A stretch of DNA of 64,000 bases, taken from Paracoccus onchidii. Its GTDB lineage: Bacteria; Pseudomonadota; Alphaproteobacteria; Rhodobacterales; Rhodobacteraceae. Within the stretch, counting starts at the first letter, position 1. Every line of letters begins with the position of its first letter. Where the stretch lies: positions 1-64,000 of the forward strand of contig NZ_JAQBIE010000015.1 of the NCBI RefSeq assembly GCF_028294535.1, given 5' to 3'. The notes under the pieces were generated by a model that ran no database searches, was not told the DNA's origin, and worked only from the letters and a program-made list of their open reading frames with translations. Shown piece by piece: positions 42,196 to 63,457 of the stretch. Both the position numbers and the translations under genes were made by a program.

Positions 42196-42208
42196 TCTCC
42201 GGACCGGC

Positions 42209-43947: not shown

Positions 43948-43956
43948 GAGCCGAAC

Positions 43957-45003: not shown

Positions 45004-45005
45004 AG

Positions 45006-46984: not shown

Positions 46985-46985
46985 C

Positions 46986-48290
46986 GTGATGGACCGGCCC
47001 CCGATCAATGATCCGGAATCCTACTTGCGCGGCCTGTTCGACCTTGCGGTTGAAACAGCGGATCCGATGCGCGTCGTTCCCGCGCATCTTCCGCCGCGGC
47101 CAAAGGGGCGGCTGATCGTCATCGGGGCCGGCAAGGCCAGCGCCCGCATGGCCGAGGCCGTCGAGGCCCATTACGGTGAATGCGAAGGCCTAGTCATTAC
47201 ACGATATGGCTATGGCCGGCCCTGTCGCGGAATACGCATTGTCGAAGCTGCGCATCCGGTGCCTGATCAGGCCGGGGTGGACGCCACGAACGACATGCTT
47301 GAACTGCTGCGGGGGCTGGCGCCCGATGATCTGGTCCTTGCGCTGATTTCAGGGGGCGGATCGGCATTGCTGTGCGCGCCGGCTTTCGGATTGGATCTGG
47401 ACCAGAAACGCGCCATCAACGATGCCTTGCTGGCATCCGGTGCGCCTATTTCCCAGATGAATCTGTTGCGCAAGCATCTTAGCCGGGTCAAGGGTGGACA
47501 GCTGGCCGCAACCGCCCATCCGGCAACGATGTTGTCGCTGCTGATGTCGGATGTGCCCGGAGATGATCCGGCCATGATCGCCTCTGGCCCGACGGTGGGA
47601 GATGACAGTACCCCGGAAGCGGCGCTTGCGATTGCCGAGCAGTGGAAGATTCCCTTGCCCGATGTTGCGCGACGGGCGCTGACCCAAGGCCATAGCGGGG
47701 TCGTGGCATCAGGATCGGCGCGTCTTGAAGCTGCCAGCACGGTCATCGTCGCAGCTCCGTCGCAATCCCTGGCCGCCGCGCGCGATGCCGCCCGGCGCGA
47801 TGGGATCGAGGTGCGGTTGCTGGGGGATCAGGTTGAAGGTGAAGCCCGCGATGTCGCCGCAGATCAGGCCGCACAGGCGCAGGAAATCGCCACAAACATG
47901 GGCGCGACCGACACGCCTGTTCTGTTGCTGTCCGGAGGAGAGCTGACGGTGACCCGAAACGGTTCGGGGGTGGGTGGACCCAATGCCGAATTTGTTTTGT
48001 CGGCCGCAATCAACTTGCAGGGGCATCCGCGGATATTCGTTCTGGCCTGTGATACCGATGGGGTGGACGGAGCTGCCGAAATCGCGGGCGCCGTTGCGGG
48101 GCCGTGCACGCTGGCGCAGGCCCAAGCAAAGGGCGTTTCGCCACAGGCGGCCTTGGCAGACAATGACGCCCACCGATTTTTCGGTCAGATCAATGGGCAG
48201 GTCGTCACCGGTCCGACCCTGACCAATGTCAATGATTTCCGGGCATTCCTGATCCTGCCGCCGGAACGGCAGGATCAGGACGAAAGCTAG
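46986..48290 (+). CDS. Glycerate 2-kinase (TtuD/GckA, MOFRL family)
   Basis: The 434-residue protein has IVIGAGKASARMAEAVEAHY (about 37-56), LALISGGGSALLCAP (about 117-131) and the MOFRL C-terminal region with LLLSGGELTVTRNGSGVGGPN (split) and DTDGVDGAAEIAGA (about 357-370). It phosphorylates D-glycerate to 2-phosphoglycerate, feeding glycolysis. As the last gene of the operon it handles the glycerate expected from mannosyl- or glucosylglycerate hydrolysis. TtuD also occurs in tartrate and glyoxylate pathways, but none of their other genes is here. Its end overlaps the convergent aldehyde dehydrogenase by 4 bases. Confidence 0.93.
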   Translation: MMDRPPINDPESYLRGLFDLAVETADPMRVVPAHLPPRPKGRLIVIGAGKASARMAEAVEAHYGECEGLVITRYGYGRPCRGIRIVEAAHPVPDQAGVDATNDMLELLRGLAPDDLVLALISGGGSALLCAPAFGLDLDQKRAINDALLASGAPISQMNLLRKHLSRVKGGQLAATAHPATMLSLLMSDVPGDDPAMIASGPTVGDDSTPEAALAIAEQWKIPLPDVARRALTQGHSGVVASGSARLEAASTVIVAAPSQSLAAARDAARRDGIEVRLLGDQVEGEARDVAADQAAQAQEIATNMGATDTPVLLLSGGELTVTRNGSGVGGPNAEFVLSAAINLQGHPRIFVLACDTDGVDGAAEIAGAVAGPCTLAQAQAKGVSPQAALADNDAHRFFGQINGQVVTGPTLTNVNDFRAFLILPPERQDQDES

Positions 48291-50668
48291 GCACCATATG
48301 GCACCCAGATCGTCTTGATCTGGGTCGCCATGTCCGTCCATTGACGTCCGCGCGCAACGTTGTCATCGAACCAATCGGTTGCGGTGCCGGCATTGGTCCA
48401 GACCTGTTTCAGATTTCCTGCCGCGCCGGCCTCGACAGCGGCGGCACCTGGTGCAGAACCGTGATACCAAAGCGCATCTACCGCATCATGTTCCGCCAGC
48501 GTTTTGGCAAGCACGTCGCGATCACCGCTGATCAGGTTAACGACTCCGGCGGGCAAATCCGAGGTGTCGAAAATCTGATACAGAGCCTGAGCGATCAAGG
48601 CATGCGCCGGCGATGGTATGGCGACGACCCTGTTTCCTGCAGCGATCAAGGGCAATATCAGCGACATCAAACCCAATAGCGGCGCATTGTCGGATGCCAG
48701 CACACCGACCACGCCGATCGGTTCCTTGACCGCCAATGTCAGATGTCGTGGTTTGGTGGCATGAATCGCGCCGTCGTCCTTATCCGCCATTCCGGCATAA
48801 TAGAAACACCGTTCCAGCGTTTTTTGAACTTCGGCACCGGCTTCGGATTTCCCGGTGCCGGTCATGTTTTGCAAAAGGCTGATCAGCTCTGACGCGCGGG
48901 CGGCGATGTTTTCAGCCAGAAAGAACAGGACCTGCGCCCTGCCATGGGCGTTCGCGGCCCAGGCACCGGCCTTGGTCGCGGCCTCCACGGCGTTGCGTAT
49001 ATCCTTTCTGGCCGAAAGCGGTGCCAAGCCCAATGGCCGGTTCTTGTGGTCCCGCACCACATAGCTTGCCCCCCCGTCGGGACGGGCCTGTTTGCCACCG
49101 ACATAGTTTTTCATGGTGCGGTCAAGCGCGTCATCGAGCGGGCCTTCGCCAAGCCGTGTGGGGCTGAAATCGACATCGACCGGCTTGGCGGGTTTGCTGC
49201 GCGATGTGGGAATGGCTTCGAGATAGGCTTGCATGCCTTCCCGTGCGCCTTCCCGGCCGAACCCGCTTTCCTTGACGCCGCCAAACGGAGCATTGGCGTC
49301 AAAGACATTGGTGGCGTTGATCCAGACCACCCCTGCCTTGATCCGCGCGGCCAGTTCAGTCGCGGCATTGATGTTTTCGGACCAGATCGAGGCCGACAGG
49401 CCGTAACCCGTATTGTTGGCCAGATCGACTGCTTCGTCGATGGTTCGAAAGCTGGTCGTGACGGCGATCGGGCCGAAAATCTCGACCTGCGAGATTTCAG
49501 ATGCCGGCTCGGCATCGGCAAAGAAGCCCGGCGAAACAAAATGCCCCTGTTCGGGCAGGGCACAGCTTGATTGTTCAAGCCTGTTGCCCTGTCGGGACGC
49601 ATTGGCCAGCAGGTTTTCGATGCGTGATTTCTGGCGCGCGGATACGATGGCCCCCATATCCGTCGATTTGTCCAATGGATCGCCGACGCGGATCTTTTCC
49701 ACGCGCGCCCTCAGCTTGTCCAGAAAACGCGGGGCGATCCCCTCCTGGACCAGCAGCCTTGATCCCGCGCAGCACACCTCGCCCTGGTTGAACCAGACGC
49801 CTTCGACAACACCTTCTACCGCGGCATCCAGATCTGCATCGGTGCAGATAACGAAAGGAGATTTCCCGCCAAGCTCCAGCGTCAGGCGTTTTCCCGAACC
49901 CGCGGTTTCGCGGCGGATTTCACGCCCCACGGCTGTCGATCCGGTAAAGGCAATCTTGGCGATGTCCGGGTGGCGCACGATCAGGGCACCGGTTTCCGCG
50001 CCTCCTTGCACGATATTGACGACCCCTTTGGGCAAGCCGATCTCGACAAGCAGTTCCGCGAAGGCGACCGAGGTCAGGGGCGTCAGATCTGCCGGTTTCA
50101 GAACGACTGTATTTCCGGCCGCCAGCGCGGGGGCGACTTTCCAGGCCAGCATCAGCAGCGGAAAGTTCCACGGGATGATCTGGCCGCACACCCCAAGCGC
50201 CTGTTGGCCCGAGAATTCGGTTTCCGCCATCGCGGCCCAACCGGCATGATGATAGAAATGGCGCACCGCAAGCGGCAGATCGGCGGTGCGGCTTTCGCGG
50301 ATTGCCTTGCCGTTATCCATCGTCTCGAGAACCGAGAAAAGTCGCTCGCGCTTTTGCAGACCGCGCGCCATTGCGTATAGAAACTGGCTGCGTTCATACC
50401 CCGATTTGCGCGACCAGGGACCGAAGGCGATCTTGGCGGCCTTGACGGCGGCGTCGACCTCTGCCTGTCCCGCTTGGGGAATATGGGCAAGGGTTTCACC
50501 CGTAGCGGGGTTTTCGACGGCCAGATCTGCGCTTGCCGCCCCTTGAAACGCGCCATTGATGAAATGTCCCAACCGGCGGTCATGGGCATCGAGCCAGGCC
50601 TGTGCGGCGCCTTGATCTTCGGGCGAGGGTCCGTAATCCATGGAAGCCATGATATCCTTGATGTTCAT
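48287..50668 (-). CDS. ALDH16-type aldehyde dehydrogenase with truncated second domain
   Basis: The 793-residue protein holds a full aldehyde dehydrogenase unit (about 1-480) with TLELGGKSPFV for the general base and FNQGEVCCAGSR with the catalytic cysteine. It is followed by a second, shorter unit (about 500-793) that lacks the cysteine loop. This is the ALDH16 architecture, known from vertebrates and from the marine alphaproteobacterium Loktanella. It ends the operon after deoC (10-base gap), so acetaldehyde released by DeoC, or another aldehyde of the pathway, is its likely substrate. The role of the second domain is structural in known members. Confidence 0.88.
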   Translation of the reverse strand: MNIKDIMASMDYGPSPEDQGAAQAWLDAHDRRLGHFINGAFQGAASADLAVENPATGETLAHIPQAGQAEVDAAVKAAKIAFGPWSRKSGYERSQFLYAMARGLQKRERLFSVLETMDNGKAIRESRTADLPLAVRHFYHHAGWAAMAETEFSGQQALGVCGQIIPWNFPLLMLAWKVAPALAAGNTVVLKPADLTPLTSVAFAELLVEIGLPKGVVNIVQGGAETGALIVRHPDIAKIAFTGSTAVGREIRRETAGSGKRLTLELGGKSPFVICTDADLDAAVEGVVEGVWFNQGEVCCAGSRLLVQEGIAPRFLDKLRARVEKIRVGDPLDKSTDMGAIVSARQKSRIENLLANASRQGNRLEQSSCALPEQGHFVSPGFFADAEPASEISQVEIFGPIAVTTSFRTIDEAVDLANNTGYGLSASIWSENINAATELAARIKAGVVWINATNVFDANAPFGGVKESGFGREGAREGMQAYLEAIPTSRSKPAKPVDVDFSPTRLGEGPLDDALDRTMKNYVGGKQARPDGGASYVVRDHKNRPLGLAPLSARKDIRNAVEAATKAGAWAANAHGRAQVLFFLAENIAARASELISLLQNMTGTGKSEAGAEVQKTLERCFYYAGMADKDDGAIHATKPRHLTLAVKEPIGVVGVLASDNAPLLGLMSLILPLIAAGNRVVAIPSPAHALIAQALYQIFDTSDLPAGVVNLISGDRDVLAKTLAEHDAVDALWYHGSAPGAAAVEAGAAGNLKQVWTNAGTATDWFDDNVARGRQWTDMATQIKTIWVPYGA

Positions 50669-50678
50669 CGGGTTTGCC

Positions 50679-51638
50679 TCAGCTCAGAGCGTGGTGATCG
50701 GCGCTGGCATAGCGGCCGGTGACGTGATGTTCGAGCTGGCGCTCGATATCGGCAAGCAACGAAGATGCCCCGATCCTGAACAGGTCGGGGCGCAACCAGG
50801 GGGCGCCCAGTTCCTCTTTCATCAGGGCAAGCCAGGCCATCGCGTCCTTGGCGGTGCGTAATCCGCCGGCCGGTTTGAAGCCGACATGATGCCCGGTCTG
50901 TTCACCGTAATCGCGGATGGCGCGCAACATGGTCAATGAAACGGGCAGGGTGGCATTCACCGGTTCCTTGCCCGTCGAGGTCTTGATGAAATCCGATCCG
51001 GCCTGCATCGCGACCATTGACGCACGATAGACATTGGTCAGGGTGCCCAGCTCTCCTGTGGCGAGGATGGCCTTCATATGGGCATCTCCGCAGGCTTCGC
51101 GCATGGCGCATATTTCGTCATACAGGGCCTGCCAGTTGCCAAGCAGCACATGCTCGCGGGTGATGACAATGTCGATTTCAGCGGCACCTTCGTCGACCGC
51201 GTAATGTATTTCGGCCAGACGCTGCGTCATGGGGGTCAAACCCGCCGGAAACCCGGTGGCCACCGAGGCCACGGGAATGCCTGATCCCTGCAACGCCTGA
51301 ACTGCGTGGCGCACCATCGTTGGATAGACGCAAACCGCGCCGGTGGTCATGCCGATATCCTGCACATCCATTGCGGACAACAGGTCGTGGCGCACTGGCT
51401 GACGTGCCTTGGCGCACAGGCGCCGGACCCGCCCCGGGGTGTCATCCCCCGCCAACGTCGTCAGGTCGATACATTGAATGGCGCGCAGCAACCACGCGGC
51501 CTGGTGCTGTTTCTTGACGCTGCGGCCGGACGCGATGTTCGCGGCCCGCCGTTCGGCTGCAGTCCGGTTGATATTAACGTCCTCGAACCTGTCGCGTTGC
51601 AGCGCGGTGCCTGGATTGCGTGCCCAGTTTTCTGACAT
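50679..51638 (-). CDS. deoC: Deoxyribose-phosphate aldolase (DeoC)
   Basis: ATG 51638 after GAGAGG gives 319 residues, as for the longer DeoC type; the frame extending to 51749 enters the kinase gene. Marks are CVYPTMV (about 103-109), EIDIVITREHVLLG (about 151-164), the Schiff-base lysine segment FIKTSTGKEPVNATL (about 217-231) and HVGFKPAGGLRTAKDA (about 254-269). It splits 2-deoxyribose 5-phosphate to acetaldehyde and glyceraldehyde 3-phosphate. With a kinase upstream and an aldehyde dehydrogenase downstream the three steps of deoxyribose breakdown are complete. Confidence 0.93.
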   Translation of the reverse strand: MSENWARNPGTALQRDRFEDVNINRTAAERRAANIASGRSVKKQHQAAWLLRAIQCIDLTTLAGDDTPGRVRRLCAKARQPVRHDLLSAMDVQDIGMTTGAVCVYPTMVRHAVQALQGSGIPVASVATGFPAGLTPMTQRLAEIHYAVDEGAAEIDIVITREHVLLGNWQALYDEICAMREACGDAHMKAILATGELGTLTNVYRASMVAMQAGSDFIKTSTGKEPVNATLPVSLTMLRAIRDYGEQTGHHVGFKPAGGLRTAKDAMAWLALMKEELGAPWLRPDLFRIGASSLLADIERQLEHHVTGRYASADHHALS

Positions 51639-51648
51639 TGCGTTCCTC

Positions 51649-52599
51649 TCAGTCCGCGGATGCGGCGGTTTTCGTGCAGAAGAGTGCGAATTCTGCCGCA
51701 GTTGCATAGGATTTCTGTGTGCCGCGGCGCGTGACCGAATAGGCGGCATAGCGCGCGGCCTGCTTCAAGGCATCTTCGGCTTGCCCCGAGCGTGCCAGAA
51801 AATGCGCGAAAGCACCAATAAACGCATCGCCCGCGCCCGTGGTGTCCACAGGTGAAACGGTGATGGCGGGGATGGGCGTCACATTTTCGGCGGTGATCAG
51901 GCGCGCACCGCGTCCGCCAAGCGTCACGATCACGGTCCCGATACCCTGCGCGATCAGGCTGCGTGCCGCCTGGGTGATCTGTTCTTCGGTGTCCGTTGGC
52001 TGCCCCGACAGCAATGCCAGTTCGGTTTCATTGGGAACCAGATAGCTGAGATCGCGCAGATCCCCGACCTGCAATTCAGGGCTGGCAGGGGCCGGATTCA
52101 GGATCGTGCGCACGCCCCATTCGGCGGCGCGCCGGACCGTGTGGCGCACCGTTTCAAGGGGGATTTCCAGCTGCATCAGGATCAGATCGGCGGTTGCCAG
52201 AACATCCTGGGCGGCGTCGACATCTGCCGGCGACAAGGTAGCGTTGGCGCCCTTGACGATCAGGATCGAGTTTTCTCCGGATGGCTCGACGAAGATCGGC
52301 GCGACCCCTGAGGTCATGCCGGGAACCTTGGCGACATGGCGGGTGTCGATGCCATGCGCTGCAAAGTTCCCAATGGTATTGTCGCCGAACATATCATCGC
52401 CGACCTTGCTGACCATTGCCACGGATGATCCCAGCAATGCGGCTGCGACGGCCTGATTTGCACCTTTGCCACCACAACCGATTTCAAAGCTGGGCGCTTC
52501 GAGGGTTTCGCCCGGAGCAGGCATGCGGCTGGTATAGGTGACCAGATCGACCATGTTCGATCCGACCACAGCGATACGTCCGGTGCCGTTGTCGGCCAT
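51649..52599 (-). CDS. Ribokinase-family kinase, probably (deoxy)ribokinase
   Basis: The 316-residue PfkB-family protein has GCGGKGANQAVAAALLG (about 37-53), the substrate-binding GGKGAN signature of ribokinases, and the anion-hole/catalytic motif VDTTGAGDAFIGAFAHFL (about 247-264, catalytic Asp in GAGD). It should phosphorylate ribose or deoxyribose at the 5-position. The deoC partner favours deoxyribose. It overlaps the DUF4432 gene by one base and lies 10 bases before deoC. Confidence 0.9.
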   Translation of the reverse strand: MADNGTGRIAVVGSNMVDLVTYTSRMPAPGETLEAPSFEIGCGGKGANQAVAAALLGSSVAMVSKVGDDMFGDNTIGNFAAHGIDTRHVAKVPGMTSGVAPIFVEPSGENSILIVKGANATLSPADVDAAQDVLATADLILMQLEIPLETVRHTVRRAAEWGVRTILNPAPASPELQVGDLRDLSYLVPNETELALLSGQPTDTEEQITQAARSLIAQGIGTVIVTLGGRGARLITAENVTPIPAITVSPVDTTGAGDAFIGAFAHFLARSGQAEDALKQAARYAAYSVTRRGTQKSYATAAEFALFCTKTAASAD

Positions 52600-53711
52600 C
52601 AGTTTTTCTCCCCTTGCAATGTCGCGATCTGGTCGAATGTCCGGGCCGCCTCTGCTGGATTCAGGTGGCCAAGCGTGACCGGAAAACGAGCGATCTCTTT
52701 CGGGGCCAGCATCCTGACATGACCTTTGGCTTTCTCGGCGGTGTACCCTTCGGGTTCGCAGGTCGATGGCAAGGCAAAAGCCGCCACCTGCGCATCGCCA
52801 TCATTCAGGATCCAACGCACGCAATGAGGAAAGTCACGGGTTGAATAGGCAACGCTGACGGCATCGCCCTGTGGAAATTCCATCGCAAGCCGGGTGTTTC
52901 CGTCCTGATCCGTGCCCGGTGATTTGATGTAGAACACCTGTTCCGGGCTATAGATCTCGGGTTCGGACAGGTATTCCATGCGCGCCGGGTTTCGCGCCAG
53001 ATCGGCAAGCAGGGCCGTGAACTCGGCCGATGGCGTGACATGACCGGGCACCGTGTCGCGCACGCGCGTGTGTTCGGGATCAAATGGCGCGGGTTGATGA
53101 ATGCGTGCATCGGCGGCAAAGTCGAAATTCGCGTGCAGCATATACATCAGTTCCATGGGGTGCGCAGACAGGTTTTCGACCTGCATTTCGATGTCCATCA
53201 CCCCTTGATCGGCCCCCAGACGGATGCGTGGACTGGCCAGATAATGTGCGCCAAAGCCCATGACATATTCGTATTGGCTGCGCAGCTCGATATAGGTGCC
53301 CGACCGGTCGCGCCCCAAATGCAGCGAGGCGCTGTCCATGCGGGCGACGGGCATTTCACCATGCAGCGGATGTGAATCTTCGGGGCCCGGCGTCCCGTTG
53401 CGCAGCAATCCGGCGTGATAGGCGAACGCCCCATAGGCTTCCAGAATAGAGGCGCCGTGACGCGGGGCGGAAAACGAATTGCCCATCCCAAGGGACCGAC
53501 CATCGAAGGTCGCGCTCCAGATCATTTGCCCAAGATAGGGCAAAGCCACGATCTCGCCCCGCCGGTTGCGGATCTTCAGACCCTCGATGCCCGTGATATA
53601 GCGAAAGGCCTCGACGGTGAAATCTGCGTTCCGAAGCAGGGTTCTTGTGGCATCCGCGGGGAAAAGATCAGGCGCAAGCGGTATTGTCGTGACGTCGAAA
53701 TCATCGCTCAT
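52599..53711 (-). CDS. DUF4432 protein (aldose-1-epimerase-like fold)
   Basis: The 370-residue protein follows the DUF4432 family, related to galactose mutarotase: GLKIRNRRGEIVALPYLGQMIWSATFDG (split, about 44-71), SILEAYGAFAYHAGLLRNG, DSHPLHGEMPVARMD and MELMYMLHANFDF. Catalytic His candidates lie in the HPLHGE and LHANF motifs. In sugar operons these proteins are thought to interconvert anomers. Here it would equilibrate deoxyribose before the kinase, which is inference. It overlaps its permease neighbour by 4 bases and the kinase gene by one. Confidence 0.8.
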   Translation of the reverse strand: MSDDFDVTTIPLAPDLFPADATRTLLRNADFTVEAFRYITGIEGLKIRNRRGEIVALPYLGQMIWSATFDGRSLGMGNSFSAPRHGASILEAYGAFAYHAGLLRNGTPGPEDSHPLHGEMPVARMDSASLHLGRDRSGTYIELRSQYEYVMGFGAHYLASPRIRLGADQGVMDIEMQVENLSAHPMELMYMLHANFDFAADARIHQPAPFDPEHTRVRDTVPGHVTPSAEFTALLADLARNPARMEYLSEPEIYSPEQVFYIKSPGTDQDGNTRLAMEFPQGDAVSVAYSTRDFPHCVRWILNDGDAQVAAFALPSTCEPEGYTAEKAKGHVRMLAPKEIARFPVTLGHLNPAEAARTFDQIATLQGEKN

Positions 53712-54718
53712 TTCGCGGACCTCAGATAGTTGATAGCGATTACAAGCACCAGAAAGCCACCCCAGACAGCATCGATCATAAAGTTCGACACCCGCATCAT
53801 CTGCAGCCCCGATGACAGGAAGGTCAGCGCCAGCAGGGCCAGAAGAACCCCCAGCACGCGGCCTTTGCCGCCAGCGGGGTTGGTGCCGCCCAATACGGCG
53901 ATCAGCACCGCTTGCAACAAATAGGAAGATCCGAAATCCGCCTTGGCCGAATTTGTTCGTCCCGACAGCAAGATTCCCGCAATCGCCGCCAGCACGCCGG
54001 AAAGCGCATAGCTGTAAAGGATCATGCGGCTACTGCGAATGCCGGCGAAAATTGCGGCGCGTGCGTTCGTGCCGATCAGCATCAGATTGACACCCAGATT
54101 GGTGCGGCGCAGCAAAATTGCGACAACGCTGGCCACGATGATCATGATCCAGAACGGCGTCGCCACCCCCAGCAGCTTGCCGGTTCCGATCCAGTTCCAG
54201 GTGGGGGGGTATCCGACGATCGCCGGGCCGCCGGTCAGAACCAGTGCCAGCCCGCCAAAGACCTGTCCGGTGCCGAGCGTTGCCAGAATGGGGATGATCC
54301 GCAGGCGGGAAATCAGGATGCCGTTCAGCAACCCCGCCGCCAACCCAACCATCAGGGCAATCATGACACCGGCAATGGTGTGCAGGATCAGCGCGGCACC
54401 GCCCGCACCCATCGTTTCGGCCACGATTGGGTTGCGAAAATAAACCCCGGCGGTGATCGCGGCCAGATTTGCAATGGCAACAACGGAAAGATCGATCCCG
54501 CCGGTCAGCATCGCGATCATCATGGCAATGCACAGGATGCCCAGTTCCGGCATCAGATAGGTCATGGATTCAAAGTTGTAATAGCTGAGGAACCGGCCTG
54601 AATTCAGAACGGTCATCAACACAAAGATCACCAACGTGACAATGATCAGCTGCGCGATCGCCGCGTCTCGGCCAAGAATTCGACCTAGCAAACGGGGTTC
54701 TGCGGATTTCGTGCTCAT
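53708..54718 (-). CDS. Ribose-type ABC transporter permease
   Basis: ATG 54718 gives 336 residues with about ten membrane segments and the CUT2 mark GGIDLSVVAIANLAAITAG (about 82-100). LGTGQVFGGLALVLTGGPAI and the C-terminal LLQAVLIAVLGGTNPAGGKG are also RbsC-like. A longer frame to 55042 overlaps the other permease gene. It is the second of two permeases, so the channel is likely a heterodimer. Confidence 0.92.
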   Translation of the reverse strand: MSTKSAEPRLLGRILGRDAAIAQLIIVTLVIFVLMTVLNSGRFLSYYNFESMTYLMPELGILCIAMMIAMLTGGIDLSVVAIANLAAITAGVYFRNPIVAETMGAGGAALILHTIAGVMIALMVGLAAGLLNGILISRLRIIPILATLGTGQVFGGLALVLTGGPAIVGYPPTWNWIGTGKLLGVATPFWIMIIVASVVAILLRRTNLGVNLMLIGTNARAAIFAGIRSSRMILYSYALSGVLAAIAGILLSGRTNSAKADFGSSYLLQAVLIAVLGGTNPAGGKGRVLGVLLALLALTFLSSGLQMMRVSNFMIDAVWGGFLVLVIAINYLRSAK

Positions 54719-54732
54719 GCGTCTGCTCCCGT

Positions 54733-55710
54733 TCAAACCAGTTTCTTGCGGTCGCGCCAGGCGGTGATCGCAGTGGCCGCAATGATGATCACCCCGACGA
54801 CAACCCGTTGCCAGGTCGTGTCGACCTTCATCAGGATCAGCGAATTCTTGACCATCACCAGGGTGAACACCCCGATCATCGTGCCCAGCACCGATCCGCG
54901 TCCGCCAAATATCGATGCTCCGCCCAGGACGACCGCGGCAATCACATCCAGTTCCAGCCCGATAAAGTCGCGCGGATTGGCCTGCCAGATCATCGAACTG
55001 TGCAGAAGGCCCGCAAACCCGGCAAGAAGACCCGCAGTGCAATAAACGAAAAAGATCGTTCTGCGGGTATTGATGCCTGCACGGCGTGCGGATTCCGCGT
55101 CGCCCCCATAGGCATAGATCGACCGCCCGATCATCGTGTATTTCAACATCAGATGGACCACGACCGCGATGGCCAGATACACCAGAACCATTGCCGTAAG
55201 ACCAACGGTTGCGCCGTTCTGGGCGGTTACGCTGACCAGATCCTGCTTGCCGAACTCGATCAGTTCCTTGGGCATCTTGTTGATATTCACGATTGATGTG
55301 CCCAGCAGGCCAAGGACCAGCCCCCGGATGATCGATGCCGTCCCCAAAGTGACGATCAGCGGGATCATCTTGAATCTGTCGATGATGACCGCGTTCAGCG
55401 CCCCAAGCGACATGCCGATGACGCAGGCCGCGATGAAGGGCAGCATTACCCCGTCATATCCAAGCGCCACCATGCTGCGGACGGTGATGTAAAGCGCCGC
55501 CACCGAGATGGCCGGGAATGAGACATCAATGCCGCCTGATATCATGATCAGCAAGACCCCAAGCGCCATGATGCCGATGACGACATTGGATTTGGCAAGG
55601 CTGAAAAGGTTGCTGACCCCCCAGAATGCCGGATTGACCAATCCGATTGCGAACATCACCAAAATCAGCACCAGGGCGATTACGGCTTCTGTCGATTGAA
55701 ATATTCTCAT
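54733..55710 (-). CDS. Ribose-type ABC transporter permease
   Basis: The 325-residue RbsC-like protein has about nine membrane segments, ISGGIDVSFPAISVAALYIT (about 57-76) and LDVIAAVVLGGASIFGGRGS (about 249-268). It starts 10 bases after the ATPase gene and ends 14 bases before the second permease. It works with the binding protein at 57309-58355. Confidence 0.92.
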   Translation of the reverse strand: MRIFQSTEAVIALVLILVMFAIGLVNPAFWGVSNLFSLAKSNVVIGIMALGVLLIMISGGIDVSFPAISVAALYITVRSMVALGYDGVMLPFIAACVIGMSLGALNAVIIDRFKMIPLIVTLGTASIIRGLVLGLLGTSIVNINKMPKELIEFGKQDLVSVTAQNGATVGLTAMVLVYLAIAVVVHLMLKYTMIGRSIYAYGGDAESARRAGINTRRTIFFVYCTAGLLAGFAGLLHSSMIWQANPRDFIGLELDVIAAVVLGGASIFGGRGSVLGTMIGVFTLVMVKNSLILMKVDTTWQRVVVGVIIIAATAITAWRDRKKLV

Positions 55711-55720
55711 CCGGGCCGCC

Positions 55721-57217
55721 TCAGTTCAGGGATTTCAGACTGTCGTTGATGCCGGCCTCGGTCATGTCGGCACCTGACAATTCGGCAACGAAGCGGCCTT
55801 CATGCATGACATGGATGCTGCTGCAATTTCCCACCAGTTCGGGCACATCGTCGGAAATCATGATCACCGCCAGCCCCTCGTTCCGGGCCAGGTCGCGGAT
55901 GATCCGATGGATCTTGGCCTTTGATCCGACATCGACCCCGACCGTGGGCCCGTTCAGGATCAGGATCTTCGCACCGGTCAACAGCCACCGGCCCAACATC
56001 ACGCGTTGGGCATTGCCGCCCGACAGATTGCCGACAGCCGTATCCGCCGACGGTGCCGCGATCTGCATGGCGTCAAACATTTCCTCGGTGCGGTTGCGCA
56101 TCCGTGCATGATCAAGAAACAGACCTTTTCTCAGGCGTTCCAGAATACTGACAACCATATTGCGTTCGATCGATTGCGTCAGGAACAGCCCCTCGCTCAG
56201 CCGATCTTCGGGGACATATGCCACCCCAAGAGCGATTGCCTGCTGGACCGAACGTGGAAACTGGTCTTTGCCGTTGATCACGATCTGGCCGCTGGCGGCT
56301 GGCTCCATTCCGAACAACGCGCGCGCAAATTCCGTGCGACCGGACCCGATCAGGCCCGATATGCCGACGATTTCCCCCGGCCGGATCGTCAGATCCACAT
56401 CCGAGACGCTATCTGGAACACGCAAACCCGAAACCTGCAGAACCGGCGCTTTGTTCGAAGACAGCTGTGCCAGATAGGGTTCATCATTCAGTTCCAGCCC
56501 GGTCATGGCATGGGTGATCGATGCTTCGTCAAAGTCGCGCATATCGCCCTCGGCCACTTTGCGGCCGTTGCGAAAGACGGTCAGGCGTTCGGATATTTCC
56601 AGCATTTCCCGCATCTTGTGGCTGACAAACAGGACCGCGATTCCATGTGATTGGAGATCGCGCACAATATCGAACAGGGCATCCACCTCGTGGCGGGTAA
56701 GGGCGGTGGTCGGCTCATCCATCACGATAAGGCGGGCCTCGGCCAGAATGGCGCGGGCGATCGCCACGATCTGCTTGCCAGAGGTCGGCAAGGTTTCGAC
56801 ATCGGCATCGATATCGATGCGCACCCCCAGACGCTCCAGCACGTCGCGCGCCATTTGCCTTGCGCGGCGCCAATCCATCCGGGAACGCCCTTCAAGAATA
56901 TAGGTGTTGAGGGCGAGATTTTCGGCCACGGTAAGATTTCCAAACAGCGAAAAATCCTGATAGATCACCTGCACGCCCTTTTGCACCGCCTGGATCGGGT
57001 CAAGCTGGGTCACTGGCGTGCCATCAATAATGATTTCGCCTTCATCGGGCTGATAAATTCCGGACATCACCTTGATGATCGTGGACTTTCCAGACCCGTT
57101 CTCGCCGGCAAGACAATGGATTTCGCCGGGCCTGATCGATATCGACACATCGTCAAGGGCGCGCACGCCGCCAAAACGCTTGCTGATGTTGCGCAGTTCT
57201 ATCAAGGGTTCTGACAT
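55721..57217 (-). CDS. Ribose-type ABC transporter ATPase (RbsA-like, two NBDs)
   Basis: ATG 57217 gives 498 residues. The N-terminal domain has Walker A GENGSGKST (about 34-42), TSGKQIVAIARAIL and Walker B VMDEPTTAL. The C-terminal domain has a degenerate Walker A (GLIGSGRTE), signature LSGGNAQRV and a Walker B that reads LILNGPTVGVDVGSK instead of LILDEPTRGVDVG. The Asp and catalytic Glu are thus replaced by Asn and Gly, so only one site should hydrolyse ATP. One degenerate domain is common in CUT2 ATPases, and this variant may define a subfamily. Confidence 0.92.
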   Translation of the reverse strand: MSEPLIELRNISKRFGGVRALDDVSISIRPGEIHCLAGENGSGKSTIIKVMSGIYQPDEGEIIIDGTPVTQLDPIQAVQKGVQVIYQDFSLFGNLTVAENLALNTYILEGRSRMDWRRARQMARDVLERLGVRIDIDADVETLPTSGKQIVAIARAILAEARLIVMDEPTTALTRHEVDALFDIVRDLQSHGIAVLFVSHKMREMLEISERLTVFRNGRKVAEGDMRDFDEASITHAMTGLELNDEPYLAQLSSNKAPVLQVSGLRVPDSVSDVDLTIRPGEIVGISGLIGSGRTEFARALFGMEPAASGQIVINGKDQFPRSVQQAIALGVAYVPEDRLSEGLFLTQSIERNMVVSILERLRKGLFLDHARMRNRTEEMFDAMQIAAPSADTAVGNLSGGNAQRVMLGRWLLTGAKILILNGPTVGVDVGSKAKIHRIIRDLARNEGLAVIMISDDVPELVGNCSSIHVMHEGRFVAELSGADMTEAGINDSLKSLN

Positions 57218-57270
57218 GGAACTTCCGTGTTGTTGTGGCAGGCACCGCATTCACGGGGGGCACTGCGATG

Positions 57271-57293
57271 GCGGGTCCGGCTGACGGACCCGC
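57271..57293 (-). terminator. Intercistronic hairpin after binding-protein gene
   Basis: GCGGGTCCG (57271-57279) pairs perfectly with CGGACCCGC (57285-57293), 15 bases after the binding-protein stop on the minus strand and before the ATPase gene. Likely attenuator or 3'-end stabiliser. Confidence 0.6.
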
Positions 57294-57308
57294 GCGTCAT
57301 CAGAAAGA

Positions 57309-58355
57309 TCAGAAGTCGTATTGATCCATGTTCTCGGCGGTTACGCCGACCCAACCAGCGCCATAAAGCAGGTTGGGTTTTTCGGCATCGGGCGCAATCA
57401 GGGATTCATACCCCACAAGACCCAGGTCCAGTCCGGCGGCAATCTGGTCCTGCTTTCCTTCAAGCGCAGCAACAGCCAGCATGTTCATCGCATACCCTGC
57501 GACCGCCGGGTCCCAGAACTGAATGTACTGGATATCGCCATTTGCCAGATATTCACCCGCGACCGAGGGCAGGCCGGTTCCTGAAAAGAACACCTTGTCC
57601 TTCAATCCGCTTTCCGCGATCAGGCGCCCCGCACCTGCCGAAGTCGGCATCGGCGCACCCAGGATCCCCGTGATGTCGGGATAGGTGGTCATCGCTTCCT
57701 TCAGTTTGGTATAGTCTGTCGCAGCGTCATCATAGGTTTCCAGCCGGTCACCGACCATTTCCATATCAGGGAAGTTTTCTTCCTGATATGCAACCGCGCC
57801 ATCGATCCATTCCATCTGGCTCTTGGAGGTCAGTGAGCCGACGGTGGTGACATATTTGCCTTTTCCACCCGTGAAGGCGCCAAGTTCTTTCATAAGGTTC
57901 GCGCCATAGGCGTGGTTGTCAAAGGCTTCCAGATCGTAATCGGTGTTTTCGAGATTGGATGCCTCGTGCGAGATCACCACGATTCCGCGTTCGCGGGCCT
58001 TCTTCAGCACCGGTTCCAGGGCTTCGACGGAAAACGGCACGACTGCAATGGCATCGACGCCTTGCGCGATCAGGTTCTCGACCAGTTGCACCTGTGCGGC
58101 GGCGTCCGCCTGGCTGGGCCCGACCATCCAGACGTCATGGCCGGTTTCGTCCTTGAACTGTTCAACCCCGTCGCGCATCCGGTCGAACCAGGCGATTCCG
58201 TCGACCTTGACCACAGTCGCGATGGTATATTTCTGGTCGTCCTTGGTTGCGATCAGGTCCTGATTGATCTTGGACGTGTCGACGATTTCCTGGGCGATGG
58301 CGGGTGCGCTCAGACATGCCAAAGCCAGCGATGCCGATGTCAGCAGCGTTTTCAT
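57309..58355 (-). CDS. Ribose/AI-2-type solute-binding protein
   Basis: The 348-residue protein has a signal peptide cleaved after PAIA (about residue 21) and a periplasmic-binding-protein fold of the RbsB/LsrB class. Marks are TIATVVKVDGIAWFDRMRDG (about 44-63), DAIAVVPFSVEALEPVL (about 100-116) and VVISHEASN (about 125-133). The sequence is nearer to autoinducer-2/rhamnose binders than to classical RbsB. The operon (DeoC, kinase, mutarotase) suggests deoxyribose or a deoxyribonucleoside-derived sugar. It heads the operon and diverges from a DeoR regulator. Confidence 0.88.
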   Translation of the reverse strand: MKTLLTSASLALACLSAPAIAQEIVDTSKINQDLIATKDDQKYTIATVVKVDGIAWFDRMRDGVEQFKDETGHDVWMVGPSQADAAAQVQLVENLIAQGVDAIAVVPFSVEALEPVLKKARERGIVVISHEASNLENTDYDLEAFDNHAYGANLMKELGAFTGGKGKYVTTVGSLTSKSQMEWIDGAVAYQEENFPDMEMVGDRLETYDDAATDYTKLKEAMTTYPDITGILGAPMPTSAGAGRLIAESGLKDKVFFSGTGLPSVAGEYLANGDIQYIQFWDPAVAGYAMNMLAVAALEGKQDQIAAGLDLGLVGYESLIAPDAEKPNLLYGAGWVGVTAENMDQYDF

Positions 58356-58440: not shown

Positions 58441-58503
58441 GTTTGTATTCATTCAAAACACGATGCGCCGAGTCAACCCAAACTTTTCCCTTTCACGCGG
58501 ATC

Positions 58504-59268
58504 ATGTCCGAAGAAGGGTTGGCAACGTGCACGTCAGGTCGGAGAGGTAAGGTGGGCAGACCATCGGGACGCAGCCTGCGCGTCGAGGAAATGAAGAAGC
58601 TGTGCGCCTCTGGGGCCATTGTCCATATCGGCGAGGCGGCGCGGCAATTGCAGACCTCGGAAATCACCATTCGCCGCGATTTGAGCGGTCAGGACAGCGG
58701 GCTGCTTTGTCTGGGCGGCTATATCATGTTCGCGGAAGGGGCGGGTGAGCGCTATTCGCTGTCGCGCGCGCAAGATACCAACGCCGGCGAAAAGCAGAGG
58801 CTGGCAAGGAAAGCCGCGAAGCTGATCGAACCCGGTGATACGATTTTCATCGATTGCGGTTCGACATTGCAATATCTGGCCGCTGCGGTTCCTGAAGATG
58901 CGAATGTAACCGTGGTGACGCAGGCCCTGAACATCGCCGACGAAATAGCCAAGCGCCGTGGCGTCAGCCTTATTCTGTTGGCCGGTCATTACCACCCGGA
59001 AAGCGGCAGCTTCAGTTCCCAGACTGCGTTGGACATGCTGGCCGAAGTAAATATCACGAAAGGGTTCTTTTCAGCCGCCGGTGTGCATGAAAGGGCAGGC
59101 GTGACCTGTTTCCATTTCCACGAGGTCGCGGTCAAGCGCCATGCCATCCGGCGGTCGCACAGGCGTATCCTGGTCTGTGATCCTTCGAAGCTGGGGCGTT
59201 CGCGCCCGGCGACCTTCGGGGATCTGAGTGATTTCGAGATCTGGATCGGCCAGCCCGGTTCAGGCTGA
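58504..59268 (+). CDS. DeoR-family regulator of the deoxyribose-type operon
   Basis: ATG 58504 gives 254 residues; a frame from 58264 would start inside the binding-protein gene. The N-terminal helix-turn-helix (GEAARQLQTSEITIRRDLSG, about 46-65) has the ITIRRDL recognition-helix pattern of DeoR/GlpR. The sugar-phosphate-sensing domain shows IFIDCGSTLQYLA (about 117-129) and a C-terminal ILVCDPSKLGRS. It is divergent from the transporter operon. Deoxyribose 5-phosphate is a likely effector by analogy with E. coli DeoR. Confidence 0.88.
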   Translation: MSEEGLATCTSGRRGKVGRPSGRSLRVEEMKKLCASGAIVHIGEAARQLQTSEITIRRDLSGQDSGLLCLGGYIMFAEGAGERYSLSRAQDTNAGEKQRLARKAAKLIEPGDTIFIDCGSTLQYLAAAVPEDANVTVVTQALNIADEIAKRRGVSLILLAGHYHPESGSFSSQTALDMLAEVNITKGFFSAAGVHERAGVTCFHFHEVAVKRHAIRRSHRRILVCDPSKLGRSRPATFGDLSDFEIWIGQPGSG

Positions 59269-59290: not shown

Positions 59291-60325
59291 TCAGTAACGG
59301 CCCGCCATCTCGACCAGTGTCAGGGGCCGAATGCGGGATGCATGTCCTGCCGTGCCGAACGCCTCGAAACGGTTGCGACAGATATCCGCCATCATCTCCA
59401 TCGCGGGTTTCAGATATTTGCGCGGATCGAACTCGGCCGGATCGCGGGCCAATGTCCGCCGGATCGCCGCAGTCATTGCCAGCCTGTTATCGGTGTCGAT
59501 GTTCACCTTGCGCACACCGGATCTGATGCCGCGCTGGATTTCCTCGACCGGGACACCCCATGTCGGGCGAATGTCCCCGCCATAGCTGTTGATGATTGCT
59601 TGCAGATCTTCGGGAACCGAGCTGGAACCATGCATCACCAGGTGGGTGTTGGGGATGCGCGCATGGATTGCCTCGATCACATGCATGGCCAGAATCTGAC
59701 CGTCGGGCTTGCGGGTGAACTTGTAGGCCCCGTGGCTGGTGCCCATAGCAACGGCCAACGCGTCTACGCCGGTATCGGCCACAAAACGCGCCGCTTCGTC
59801 GGGGTCGGTCAGCAACTGGTCTTCGGACAGTTTTTCGGTCGCGCCGTGGCCATCTTCCTGATCGCCCATACCGGTTTCCAGGCTGCCCAGAACGCCCAGT
59901 TCACCTTCCACCGAAACGCCGCAGGCATGGGCCATTTCCACCACGCGGGCGGTGATGTCGCGGTTGTAATCGTAGTCGGCAGGCGTTTTCCCATCGGATT
60001 TCAGGCTGCCATCCATCATGACGCTGGTGAAGCCGTTCTGGATTGCGGTCGCGCAGGTCGACAGGCCGTTGCCGTGATCCAGATGCATGCAAACAGGGAT
60101 TTCGGGAAAGGCGCGCGCAAACCCCGCGATCAACCCCGCCAGGACAAGATCATTGGCATAGGACCGCGCGCCGCGGCTGGCCTGAAGGATAACCGGGCTG
60201 TCGGTGGCCTGGGCGGCCTGCATCACTGCAAGCCCTTGTTCCATGTTGTTGATATTGAACGCAGGCACGGCATAGCCGTGTTCGGCCGCGTGATCCAAAA
60301 GTTGGCGAAGCGTGATCATTGCCAT
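59291..60325 (-). CDS. fba: Class II fructose/sedoheptulose-bisphosphate aldolase (Calvin type)
   Basis: The 344-residue zinc aldolase shows [18 protein letters not shown] (about 21-38) and the metal-binding [14 protein letters not shown] (about 77-90). [14 protein letters not shown] (about 138-151), [11 protein letters not shown] (about 192-202) and [12 protein letters not shown] (about 228-239) follow. This is the CbbA/CfxA subtype, which accepts both fructose and sedoheptulose bisphosphate. It ends an operon with an EryH/EryI-like pair and FBPase, where condensation of erythrose 4-phosphate with dihydroxyacetone phosphate would make sense. There are no RubisCO genes here. Confidence 0.94.
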
Positions 60326-60330
60326 GGCTG

Positions 60331-61308
60331 TTATCCTTTGTGGCCGGCGAGATAGGCGAGGATCGTTTCAACCTCGTCCTTTGCGCCAAAGATGAGGGGA
60401 GAAAATTCGTGCAAGCCCTGCGGTTGCCGATCAAGTATCGGCACTTGGCCGTCGCTTGCCGCGCCGCCTGCCTGCTCGATCAGAAACGCGATGGGTGCGC
60501 ATTCATAGACAAGCCGCAAGCGGCCGTCCTGATAGCCGGGCCGATGATCGGCAGGATAGAGAAACGCCCCCCCTTGCAGCAGGATGCGATGCAATTCTCC
60601 GACTGCTGCCGCCAACCAGCGCATGTTGAAATTGCGTTGGCGCGGACCGTCGGCACCGGCCCGCAGATCGCGCAGCCAGGCCTGCAGCCCGGCGGACCAG
60701 TGCCGTTCATTCGAGGCATTGTAGGCGATGGTCGTAGCTTGTGGTTTCAGCGTGACGTTCTGATGCGTCAGGCGGAATTGACCCGCTTCACCGTCATAGG
60801 TCGCGATCTGAACACCGTTTCCCGTAGACCAGCCAAAATCCAGCGAATGGCCGAATGAAGCGTATCCCGCGGCGATGATCTCGCGACCGGGGCGTTGGAA
60901 GCCGTCTTCCGCGGCCGGAAGGACCGAGAACAACATTCCCAATGGCGCGCCGATTCCAATGCTTCCGGAACCGTCGATCGGATCAATGGCCACATCATAT
61001 GCGCCGTCGGGGGCGAGGATCGCGATGTCTTCCGCTTCTTCGGACAACACTTGGCGCACACCCGTGTCACGCAATGCGGCAAGCATGTGGTGATGCGCCG
61101 CAAGATCCAGCGCCTTTTGCTTGTCGCCGCTGTCATTCACGCCGACAATCGAAGCAGGGTCGCCATGCAGCCTGCCCGCCGCCAGCCGCGCGGCCAGCGG
61201 AGGCAGCGCGTTGGCAATGGCCAGAACAACGCTTTCACGCCCCGGTTGCGTCAGGGCATCGGCTAACGGGCGGCCCGTCGCGGGGCCGTCATTTGGCAGG
61301 GTCAGCAT
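60331..61308 (-). CDS. fbp: Class I fructose-1,6-bisphosphatase (possibly SBPase)
   Basis: The 325-residue protein has the FBPase fold with the metal site SEEAEDI (about 94-100) and [10 protein letters not shown] (about 113-122), RRNFN-like ...[20 protein letters not shown], and [18 protein letters not shown] (about 270-287). The metal motif differs from the usual DPLDGSSN, and the allosteric N-terminus is short. It hydrolyses the 1-phosphate of fructose- or sedoheptulose-bisphosphate. Placed 5 bases before fba, it would pull the aldolase product to the monophosphate. Confidence 0.9.
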
Positions 61309-61326
61309 GGCAGATGGTTCCCGACC

Positions 61327-61788
61327 TCAGGCCTTGTTGTACTTGGCGTCAACGTCGTCGATGGCATTGACATTGCCGGCCGAACGGCCTGCGGCGTCAA
61401 AATTCATCGTCTCGGCCAGCCACGCATCGGCGATGGTCTTGGCGACCTCGGCCCCGATAACGCGGGCGCCCATGGTGATGATCTGGGCGTTGTTGGACAG
61501 GGCCGCGCGTTCAGCCGAATAAGTGTCATGGGTCAGGGCGGCACGAATGCCCGGCACCTTGTTTGCGGCAATGCACACGCCAATGCCGGTTCCGCAGACC
61601 AGAATGGCGCGGTCATATGTGCCATCCAGAACCTGCCCGGCCACGCGGTCAGACAGATTGGCATAAAAGGCATCGGGCCCGGCATCGGTGCGGCTGATTT
61701 CCGACACCTCGTGCTTGTCCTTCAGGTGGTCGGCCAGAACCTTGGCCAGACCTTCGCCGGCGCTGTCACCTGCAATTGCCAATTTCAT
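61327..61788 (-). CDS. RpiB/LacAB-family isomerase (EryI-like)
   Basis: ATG 61788, six bases after AAGGAG, is preferred to ATG 61803, whose own site would be missing. The 153-residue protein has the RpiB marks [10 protein letters not shown] (2-11), [20 protein letters not shown] (about 65-84) and [14 protein letters not shown] (about 97-110). RpiB paralogues next to a TpiA paralogue and a DeoR gene are EryI of Brucella and related tetrose enzymes, which isomerise erythrulose 4-phosphate to erythrose 4-phosphate. A plain ribose-5-phosphate isomerase role cannot be excluded. Confidence 0.87.
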
Positions 61789-61799
61789 TCCTGTCTCCT

Positions 61800-62558
61800 T
61801 CATAGTTTCGCGGCGCAGCGCGCCAGAATGTCAAGATAACCCTCGACCTGCCAGGCCGAGCGTCCGATGAACAGCCCGTCAATATGCGGGCATTCAATCA
61901 GCTCTTCGCAATTTCCGGGGTTGACCGAGCCGCCATAAAGGCATGGCACCTTGCGCCCCAGCATCTGTTCCGCCACCGCAATGATTTCGGCTTGTCGGGC
62001 GTCGGCATAATCCGAAGAGGCGGGGATGCCGTTCACGCCGATTGCCCAGACCGGTTCATATGCCAGCAGGATTTCTGCACCATGCTGGTCCTTGCCCAGC
62101 TTGCCCAAAGCCCCGCGGACCTGGGTTTCCAGCACCTGCCGGGCACGTCCGGCCTCGCGTTCGGCCAATGTCTCGCCGATGCAGATCAGGGGAACCAAGC
62201 CGTGGCGCACGGCGGCTTCGGTCTTCAATCCGACGGTTTCATCGGTCTCGCCGAAATGCTCGCGCCGTTCGCTATGGCCCAGCTCCACGAGGTCCAGATT
62301 GCAATCGGTCAGCATCACCGGAGACACTTCCCCTGTCCAGGCACCTTGATCGTCCCAATGCATGTTCTGCGCGCCCACCTTGACCGAACTGTCGGCAAGC
62401 ATGGCCTTGACCTCGCGCACGGCCGTGAAAGGCGGGATGACGAAGCGTTGGATGCGTGGGTCGCGGCCGGCATCGGCGGCGGCCAGGCCTTGGGCAAACA
62501 TGCGGGCCTCGGCCAGGGTCTTGTTCATCTTCCAGCTGGTGCCGATCCAGAAGGTCAT
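61800..62558 (-). CDS. TpiA-family isomerase (EryH/LerI-like)
   Basis: The 252-residue protein keeps the triose-phosphate isomerase residues: [13 protein letters not shown] with Asn and Lys (about 6-18), ELGHSERR with His (about 91-98), AYEPVWAIG with catalytic Glu (about 163-171) and [13 protein letters not shown] (about 205-217). GTSWKMNKT instead of GNWKMN marks the second-type TpiA seen in erythritol loci (EryH, L-3-tetrulose-4-phosphate isomerase). Its start overlaps the deoR gene by 4 bases and it runs into rpiB. Ordinary TPI activity remains possible. Confidence 0.87.
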
Positions 62559-63352
62559 GGGGTTGTTTCCTTTATGTCCGGGTTTTGCTGCCTGACGGGC
62601 GGCGCGATGGTCAACGCAATCCCCGCCCGGTCGATCGCGGTGCGGCTTTCCGGGGGGGCGTCGGTGATGATTGCCTCGAAGTCCGACAGATCGGCCATCC
62701 GATGCAACGCCGAGTGCCCAAAGCGGCGATGATTCACCAGCAGTATCCGGCGATCTGCGGCGGCGATCATTGCGCGTTTTACACGCACAACCGATTCATC
62801 CATATGAAAAGAGCCGAGGCCGGAAATGGCGGGCGAAGAAAGGAACGCGATATCTGCGCGCAGTTCCGACAAGACGGTTTCGGTGAGCACGCCGAAAAAC
62901 GCATTGAACTTGGCGTTGAACAAACCACCCAGGGCGATCAGCCGGATACGTGATGCATCCTTCAGCCTTTCGATGATTGCCGCGTTGTTGGTGATGACCG
63001 TCAGCGGAACTTTCTGTGTCAGCTGCGCGCCCAGCAGGGCCGCCATGGAACCGTCATTGATCATGACCGTCATGCCCGGTTCGATCAGGTCCAGCGCGGC
63101 CGCCGCCATGCGAGCCTTGGCCTCGCCATCCTGCAGTTCCCGGATGCGGAAATCGCTTTCGAATTGCGTGCCGGTTTCGATGGTGGCCCCGCCGCGCATC
63201 TTGCGCAACAGGCCGGCCTGTTCAAGATCATCCAGGTCGCGGTGGATGGTCATTTTCGATACCGCGAAACGGTCGGCAAGATCGTCCAGATCCACGGCAC
63301 GATCCGCGATCAGAATATCCATGATCGCCTGCCGGCGCTCGTCTCGTTTCAC
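62555..63352 (-). CDS. DeoR/GlpR-family regulator (EryR-like)
   Basis: GTG 63352, behind GGGGAAA, gives 265 residues. The N-terminal DeoR helix-turn-helix (DDLADRFAVSKMTIHRDLDD, about 19-38) is followed by LRKMRGGA and a sugar-phosphate domain with VMINDGSMAALLGAQL (about 95-110). The IHRDLDDLEQAGLL recognition stretch is classical. It heads an operon with the tpiA-rpiB-fbp-fba genes and is the natural candidate to repress it. In Brucella the matching deoR gene precedes tpiA2 and rpiB in the same order. Confidence 0.9.
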   Translation of the reverse strand: MKRDERRQAIMDILIADRAVDLDDLADRFAVSKMTIHRDLDDLEQAGLLRKMRGGATIETGTQFESDFRIRELQDGEAKARMAAAALDLIEPGMTVMINDGSMAALLGAQLTQKVPLTVITNNAAIIERLKDASRIRLIALGGLFNAKFNAFFGVLTETVLSELRADIAFLSSPAISGLGSFHMDESVVRVKRAMIAAADRRILLVNHRRFGHSALHRMADLSDFEAIITDAPPESRTAIDRAGIALTIAPPVRQQNPDIKETTP

Positions 63353-63407: not shown

Positions 63408-63457
63408 CAACAAAACAACATATATAATGTTATTTTAATACAGTGAATGTGACATTC
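63408..63457 (-). promoter_or_regulatory. AT-rich promoter region with palindrome before the deoR operon
   Basis: AACAACATATATAATGTT (63414-63431) and the odd palindrome GAATGT-G-ACATTC (63445-63457) lie 60 to 105 bases upstream of the deoR start. The region is much richer in A and T than its surroundings and should hold the operon promoter and a DeoR site. Which repeat is bound cannot be told. Confidence 0.4.

Follow-up and report, generated by a model that had tools for sequence, protein, structure and literature searches.

A Predicted Lower Erythritol Pathway Joined to Bisphosphatase and Aldolase Genes in Paracoccus onchidii and Its Relatives

Paracoccus onchidii, of the Rhodobacterales, carries a run of five genes in which what appears by sequence to be the lower half of the erythritol pathway (eryR-eryH-eryI) is joined to genes for a class I fructose-bisphosphatase (FBPase) and a class II fructose-bisphosphate aldolase. 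The window analyzed is a 64,000-nucleotide stretch (contig NZ_JAQBIE010000015.1, assembly GCF_028294535.1), and the run fills positions 59291 to 63352 of its minus strand. An earlier note, made from the letters of the DNA, had described these genes; all five open reading frames were recovered at that place and on that strand, and profile searches confirmed their families. The operon probably serves the lower half of erythritol catabolism, with the aldolase (Fba) and the bisphosphatase (Fbp) moving erythrose 4-phosphate (E4P) and triose phosphates onward by both a sedoheptulose route and the classical route, under the regulator EryR.

The genes are transcribed in the order eryR (a deoR gene), tpi, rpiB, fbp and fba. 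Both eryR/tpi and tpi/rpiB overlap by 4 bases, and the gaps are 18 bases between rpiB and fbp and 5 bases between fbp and fba. Because neighboring genes overlap or lie this close, a single transcript from eryR to fba is likely, and the co-directional layout supports the proposal in the earlier note that deoR-tpi-rpiB forms one operon with fbp and fba. Downstream, another DeoR gene, on the plus strand, points toward fba and is part of a distinct deoxyribose-type cluster.

The two isomerases are probably of the tetrose type rather than housekeeping triose-phosphate isomerase (TIM) and ribose-5-phosphate isomerase. RpiB passes the curated equivalog model NF051858 (D-erythrulose-4-phosphate isomerase) with 246.4 bits against a cut-off of 240, and its nearest solved chain is 5ifz (278 bits). 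The TIM-type protein matches the solved 11ef, titled 'L-erythrulose-1-phosphate isomerase', with 471 bits, and the next solved TIM reaches 182; it also scores above the cut-off of the general TIM model NF000722. The loop PVWAIG-x-x-G-I/M-PA is found in 76 of 79 TIM sequences from ery loci, the window included, and the other three are pieces of 56-77 residues without this stretch. All three housekeeping TIMs compared, one of which is the second TIM of the same genome, have PVWAIGTGRTP at this place and share 34-38% identity with the window protein. A housekeeping identity for the isomerases was ruled out by the NF051858 score, the 11ef score and the ery-type loop, which support the eryR-eryH-eryI assignment that the earlier note had drawn from gene order and features.

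The arrangement recurs in relatives. The comparison used the 80 best loci among the matches listed for a closely similar RpiB. Record titles assigned 39 of them to Rhodobacterales, 14 to the Brucellaceae type and 27 to other groups (mostly Rhizobiales). L058, titled only Rhizobiales, was placed in the Brucellaceae type by gene order and Fba, and three metagenome-assembled genomes of loose label (L040, L048 and L068) were counted among the others. Genes at the loci were counted by tblastn with an identity floor for each gene (for example, 65% for fba and 40% for fbp), and loci cut by contig ends are kept in the denominators unless room downstream is stated. A same-strand fbp follows rpiB in 32/39 Rhodobacterales loci, 0/14 Brucellaceae-type loci and 0/27 others, and a same-strand fba lies within 1.8 kb in 25/39, 0/14 and 1/27, respectively. 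An fba on the opposite strand is found in all 14 Brucellaceae-type loci, where an opposite-strand fba-fbp pair adjoins rpiB, and in 0/39 Rhodobacterales and 0/27 others. All four eryABCD genes are in the stretch fetched around rpiB in 27 of the 39 Rhodobacterales, 13 of the 14 Brucellaceae-type and 19 of the 27 other loci. A transketolase gene is divergent from eryR in 21 of the 39 Rhodobacterales loci; this name was given from a protein cut by a contig end, which scores 486 bits against TIGR00232 (full-length cut-off 682).

Of 61 genomes drawn from the genus, that of P. onchidii among them, 20 have this rpiB at E <= 1e-50. In 17 of the 20, fba is found no more than 3 kb from rpiB on one contig (counted by hand from coordinates), so the gene arrangement is not chance. 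No fba match was found in two of the 20, G015 and G050, the latter being 81% complete. In another genome (G001), the contig ends just past rpiB, and a different contig starts with a fragment of fbp that scores weakly, under the family cut-off, and with an fba match interrupted by one stop. The module is also found on plasmids. Relatives of Fbp occur in 159 plasmid records, six of which were opened, and four of these six carry tpi-rpiB-fbp-fba: those of P. seriniphilus, Paracoccus sp. TOH, Thalassospira marina and Roseibium aggregatum. A divergent transketolase stands beside the module in all of these regions but that of P. seriniphilus (3/4). The T. marina and R. aggregatum loci, from other orders of Alphaproteobacteria, have the genes in the order of the window and eryAB-type kinase and dehydrogenase genes alongside; for Thalassospira, the gene table, which may be incomplete, shows no DeoR gene between tkt and tpi. 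The eryR-tpiB-rpiB operons of Sinorhizobium, Mesorhizobium and Rhizobium match the window in the order of these three genes. Unlike the window, the loci classed as others have no linked fba in 22 of the 23 with room downstream.

The aldolase of the window scores 601.9 bits against TIGR01521 (cut-off 496.35), and its solved relative is 5u7s (466 bits). The earlier note had called this gene Calvin-type. That description holds at the level of the model and fails at the level of the protein, which lies outside the clade of the Paracoccus cbb-operon aldolases. In a tree of 61 sequences, the ery-linked Rhodobacterales proteins stand apart from a 97/99 branch of Brucellaceae-type ery-adjacent and Paracoccus cbb-type proteins, in a tree whose root is a long outgroup branch and whose bootstrap had not converged. 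Hits shorter than 60% of the query length were left out of the trees.

Fbp scores 366.3 bits against NF006780 (cut-off 358) and has a distinctive active-site loop. This loop reads DPIDGS-G/N-SIG-x-GAPLG in 32/32 ery-linked Rhodobacterales proteins, the window included, and also in all three fbp-fba pairs found without rpiB. It reads DPLDGSGNVGLGAPLG in 14/14 Brucellaceae-type proteins and DPLDGSSN in 14/14 cbb-type proteins, whose stretches are represented by one (L134) that was read gene by gene and has, by eye, phosphoribulokinase (PRK) and transketolase. The GxGAPLG part is thus common to the ery-linked and the 14 Brucellaceae-type proteins and is not in the 14 cbb-type proteins. GAPLG is kept in five of the six plasmid proteins, and the Salipiger protein reads GICALLG. 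Another FBPase, at L122 in genome G005, reads DPIDGSSNVDV. A tree of Fbp proteins, built without an outgroup, sets only the cbb group apart and says nothing on whether the ery-linked and Brucellaceae groups are sisters. The loop is the one new lead: it points to an altered active site in a group of class I FBPases that may be a distinct bisphosphatase.

The Calvin operon of Paracoccus, cbbF-cbbP-cbbT-cbbA, contains an aldolase and a bisphosphatase for the same two reactions, plus a transketolase. In contrast, the P. onchidii genome has no match to the RuBisCO large subunit (PF00016; control matched in 5/14), its Fba and Fbp lie outside the cbb groups, and its Fbp loop differs. Membership of the operon in a Calvin cluster was ruled out on the RuBisCO search, the Fba tree, and the Fbp tree and loop.

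Table 1. Genes and candidate operator of the predicted erythritol operon in the window.
Feature	Position	Strand	Basis or remark
eryR, DeoR-family regulator, GTG start	62555..63352	-	Pfam HTH_DeoR and DeoRC
Candidate operator, inverted half-sites TAACA-N7-TGTTG	63416..63432	-	first base 80 bases upstream of eryR
tpi (eryH type), predicted TIM-fold tetrulose-phosphate isomerase	61800..62558	-	solved match 11ef and loop
rpiB (eryI/derI type), predicted D-erythrulose-4-phosphate isomerase	61327..61803	-	NF051858
fbp, class I fructose-bisphosphatase with distinctive active-site loop	60331..61308	-	NF006780 and loop comparison
fba, class II fructose-bisphosphate aldolase	59291..60325	-	TIGR01521, solved relative 5u7s, tree

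The upper half of the pathway is in the same genome, whose assembly is 4.08 Mb in 83 contigs. The earlier note had found no kinase or dehydrogenase genes for a tetritol in the window. They do lie outside it, and the search for eryA/eryB-type genes found the run eryA-eryB-eryC-eryD on another contig, divergent from an ATP-binding cassette (ABC) transporter. EryA is 79% identical to EryA of locus L036, EryB is GlpD-like, and EryC, which has no NCBIfam match, is named by position and homology only. Plasmid p449297 of P. seriniphilus covers 100% of a 12.7 kb block of the window, made up of the erythritol module and the deoxyribose-type cluster, at 79.8% identity. The EryA gene of this plasmid lies ~160 kb from the block, so the split between module and eryABCD is shared with the P. 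onchidii genome. In most other relatives, the module and the ery parts are together.

Two further sites have genes of related type. At L117 (15735-18976), a second pair of FGGY kinase and GlpD-like dehydrogenase genes adjoins the ery ABC transporter and is perhaps for another polyol. At L118 (1228-4493, contig C19), a 49% relative of EryA lies beside genes that, by eye, resemble those for a hydroxyacid dehydrogenase and for a class II aldolase/epimerase; a sulfatase-like gene and an ABC transporter of the taurine/nitrate type are close by.

The DeoR-type regulator is the first gene of the operon, and an eryR homologue precedes tpi-rpiB in 32 of the 39 Rhodobacterales loci. A loose TAACA/TGTTG pattern occurs upstream in 28/32 Rhodobacterales (0.095 expected from mononucleotide shuffles, all shuffled means being <0.1), 0/14 Brucellaceae-type and 4/8 other loci; the pattern was picked after viewing the same upstream sequences, and the test is not independent. 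No copy of the pattern lies in the sequence before eryA on the other contig. Therefore, the eryR operon and the eryABCD run may answer to different regulators.

The closest known system is that of Brucella, in which eryABCD-eryR-eryH-eryI with an adjacent fba-fbp has the same isomerase, regulator, aldolase and bisphosphatase families as the window. In the Brucellaceae-type loci, fba-fbp is on the opposite strand to rpiB, whereas the window has all five genes on one strand and apart from eryABCD. The fba homologue adjoining rpiB was noted in 2013 (PMC3599248). Lazaro-Anton and others reported in 2024 (PMC11005471) for B. suis 513 that purified Fbp and Bbp hydrolyze sedoheptulose 1,7-bisphosphate and that Fbp acts on both bisphosphates. 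A mutant lacking transaldolase (Tal) grows on erythritol, a fba tal double mutant does not, and growth on erythritol requires Tal or Fba/Fbp-Bbp (PMC11005471). The fba deleted in this work is the homologue of BAB2_0365 (PMC11005471). From the gene order in the 14 Brucellaceae-type loci and PMC3599248, we infer that the B. suis enzymes studied are the products of the ery-adjacent genes. A second paper builds on this work (PMC11508834). The chemistry proposed in the earlier note, in which E4P and dihydroxyacetone phosphate are condensed to sedoheptulose bisphosphate and then hydrolyzed to sedoheptulose 7-phosphate, is plausible, given this published route. The mechanism is therefore already in print for another genus; the pathway is known, and the operon arrangement and the host group are new. 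No paper on an eryR-tpi-rpiB-fbp-fba operon in Paracoccus was found in the open-licence literature.

By analogy with Brucella, the reactions in P. onchidii would be as follows. EryABC, encoded on the other contig, would phosphorylate, oxidize and racemize erythritol to a D-tetrulose 4-phosphate. EryH (TIM-type) and EryI (RpiB-type) would then isomerize this product, via D-erythrulose 4-phosphate, to D-erythrose 4-phosphate. Fba would join E4P to dihydroxyacetone phosphate, and Fbp would hydrolyze the resulting sedoheptulose 1,7-bisphosphate irreversibly to sedoheptulose 7-phosphate for transketolase, a step that would make the entry of tetroses irreversible. In a second use, also predicted from the Brucella model, Fba and Fbp would convert triose phosphates to fructose 6-phosphate (F6P). 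No match to phosphofructokinase (PFK) was found in the genome, and for this reason F6P would presumably be used via the Entner-Doudoroff pathway. EryR would control the operon in response to an erythritol-derived signal.

With the reaction set used, the flux balance of the sedoheptulose route alone is 3 E4P to 2 F6P plus inorganic phosphate (Pi). Transaldolase alone yields F6P and 2 glyceraldehyde 3-phosphate (GAP), and with neither route E4P is unusable. Transaldolase combined with classical Fba/Fbp gives the same net balance of 3 E4P to 2 F6P plus Pi. One of the two routes is therefore needed, and the gene set does not reveal which of them the flux takes. The transketolase linked to the module in relatives fits the need for this enzyme in either route.

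Several observations weigh against the dual role of the operon in erythritol catabolism. The equal net balance is one of them. Another is the single transaldolase-family match (PF00923) in the genome, at G000:C4. This protein scores 280.6 bits against TIGR00875 (cut-off 245.95), a model named fructose-6-phosphate aldolase; it contains VSAEV and SPFIGRLDD, which we take to be residues of transaldolase and not of fructose-6-phosphate aldolase. With this gene present and the balances the same, the 'transaldolase-free' entry of tetroses proposed in the earlier note is not supported. The detachment of the window module from eryABCD also counts on this side, as does the identity of only 49-51% between the window Fbp and the Brucellaceae-type proteins. 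In Rhodobacterales loci with room downstream, fba is missing in 10/35; four of these ten (L054, L063, L083 and L097; three Pseudogemmobacter and one Paracoccus-titled) keep a linked fbp. The pair fbp-fba is found without tpi-rpiB in G011, G054 and G059 and beside a C4-dicarboxylate transporter on a P. yeei plasmid, and fbp is alone on a Salipiger plasmid; the occurrence of fbp-fba outside tpi-rpiB in some relatives speaks for a general gluconeogenic use as well. In B. suis 513, bypass mutants still grow on erythritol via Tal, and a fbp glpX tal mutant grows, after a long lag, through the unlinked Bbp (PMC11005471). Therefore, the linked Fbp is non-essential even in that organism. The bisphosphate assayed there was made with rabbit aldolase, and condensation of E4P by Fba was inferred from mutants (PMC11005471). 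As a separate observation, in L130 of G059 (5816-8664) fbp-fba comes right after an eryR relative and neither tpi nor rpiB is present, which looks like a loss of the isomerases from the operon.

One alternative is that, within the same erythritol module, Fba and Fbp perform only classical gluconeogenesis, turning GAP from the transaldolase/transketolase route into F6P, with sedoheptulose 1,7-bisphosphate insignificant. Besides the transaldolase-family gene, the identical balance and the other settings of fbp-fba in G011, G054, G059 and P. yeei, the enzyme inventory of the genome agrees with it. There are two class II aldolases, and the one outside the Fba clade appears, on our reading, to sit among inositol-type genes; class I FBPase has one match, and neither a further FBP aldolase nor a further class I FBPase was found. 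PF00274, the class I aldolase model, matched nowhere, controls included, so an aldolase of that class in the genome is not excluded. However, the growth of the B. suis 513 tal mutant on erythritol and the failure of the tal fba double mutant (PMC11005471) argue against a purely classical role, as does the part of the unusual loop that the linked Fbp has in common with the Brucellaceae-type Fbp. The genome also has one GlpX FBPase, in addition to two TIMs, and classical FBPase activity therefore need not stem from the window operon. On balance, this alternative is rather unlikely. A further reading is tentative and somewhat doubtful: the ery-linked Fbp might be a dedicated sedoheptulose 1,7-bisphosphatase subfamily and, with Fba and the divergent transketolase of relatives, might form a self-contained, erythritol-induced, transaldolase-independent route that draws E4P irreversibly toward the pentose phosphate cycle and that occurs in three or more orders of Alphaproteobacteria.

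Two other explanations were considered. The module could be for another source of tetrose, such as D- or L-threitol, L-erythrulose or apiose, and the additional erythritol-kinase-like genes of the genome (the 49% relative on C19 and the second FGGY kinase with its GlpD-like partner beside the ery transporter) would suit this idea. The eryABCD run with its 79% EryA in the same genome, and the presence of eryABCD in the stretch of the module in 59 of the 80 related loci, make it very unlikely; genes specific to threitol or apiose were not searched for. Less credible still is a housekeeping role, with ordinary triose and pentose phosphate enzymes placed beside the adjacent deoxyribose-type cluster to process its GAP. 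That cluster, with a solute-binding protein (SBP), ABC transporter, DUF4432, ribokinase, DeoC and aldehyde dehydrogenase, does accompany the module in P. seriniphilus, within the conserved 12.7 kb block. However, both isomerases belong to the tetrose type, the two clusters run toward each other and each has its own DeoR gene, and at the thresholds used no DeoC, ribokinase, DUF4432 or SBP match was found at the 80 related loci, where only weak ABC, permease and aldehyde dehydrogenase matches occur. The deoxyribose-type cluster as the main link was rejected on these grounds.

The rest of the window contains other catabolic and transport genes. The deoxyribose-type catabolic cluster lies at 48287-58355 on the minus strand, with its DeoR gene at ~58498-59268 on the plus strand, and encodes an ABC transporter, DUF4432, a ribokinase-type kinase, DeoC and an aldehyde dehydrogenase of 793 residues with a double domain. 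Genes for a solute-binding protein, an ABC ATPase, a mannosylglycerate-hydrolase-like protein (PF22422), D-lyxose isomerase (PF07385) and glycerate kinase (DUF4147/MOFRL) are at 40843-48290 (plus strand), which looks like a mannosyl- or glucosylglycerate utilization cluster. A GH42 beta-galactosidase gene is at 36662-38596 (plus strand), and two divergent heavy-metal P-type ATPases are at 7807-12595.

The preferred reading remains that of a lower erythritol pathway in which Fba and Fbp serve both the sedoheptulose and the classical routes. The Fba/Fbp entry of erythritol carbon is known from a pathogen, in which it has been seen as an adaptation to placental erythritol, and the present comparison suggests that its genes form a single operon in Rhodobacterales and related bacteria. 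The entry may therefore not have arisen for virulence. Hosts other than Brucella are now at hand in which the Fba/Fbp entry of erythritol carbon can be tested.

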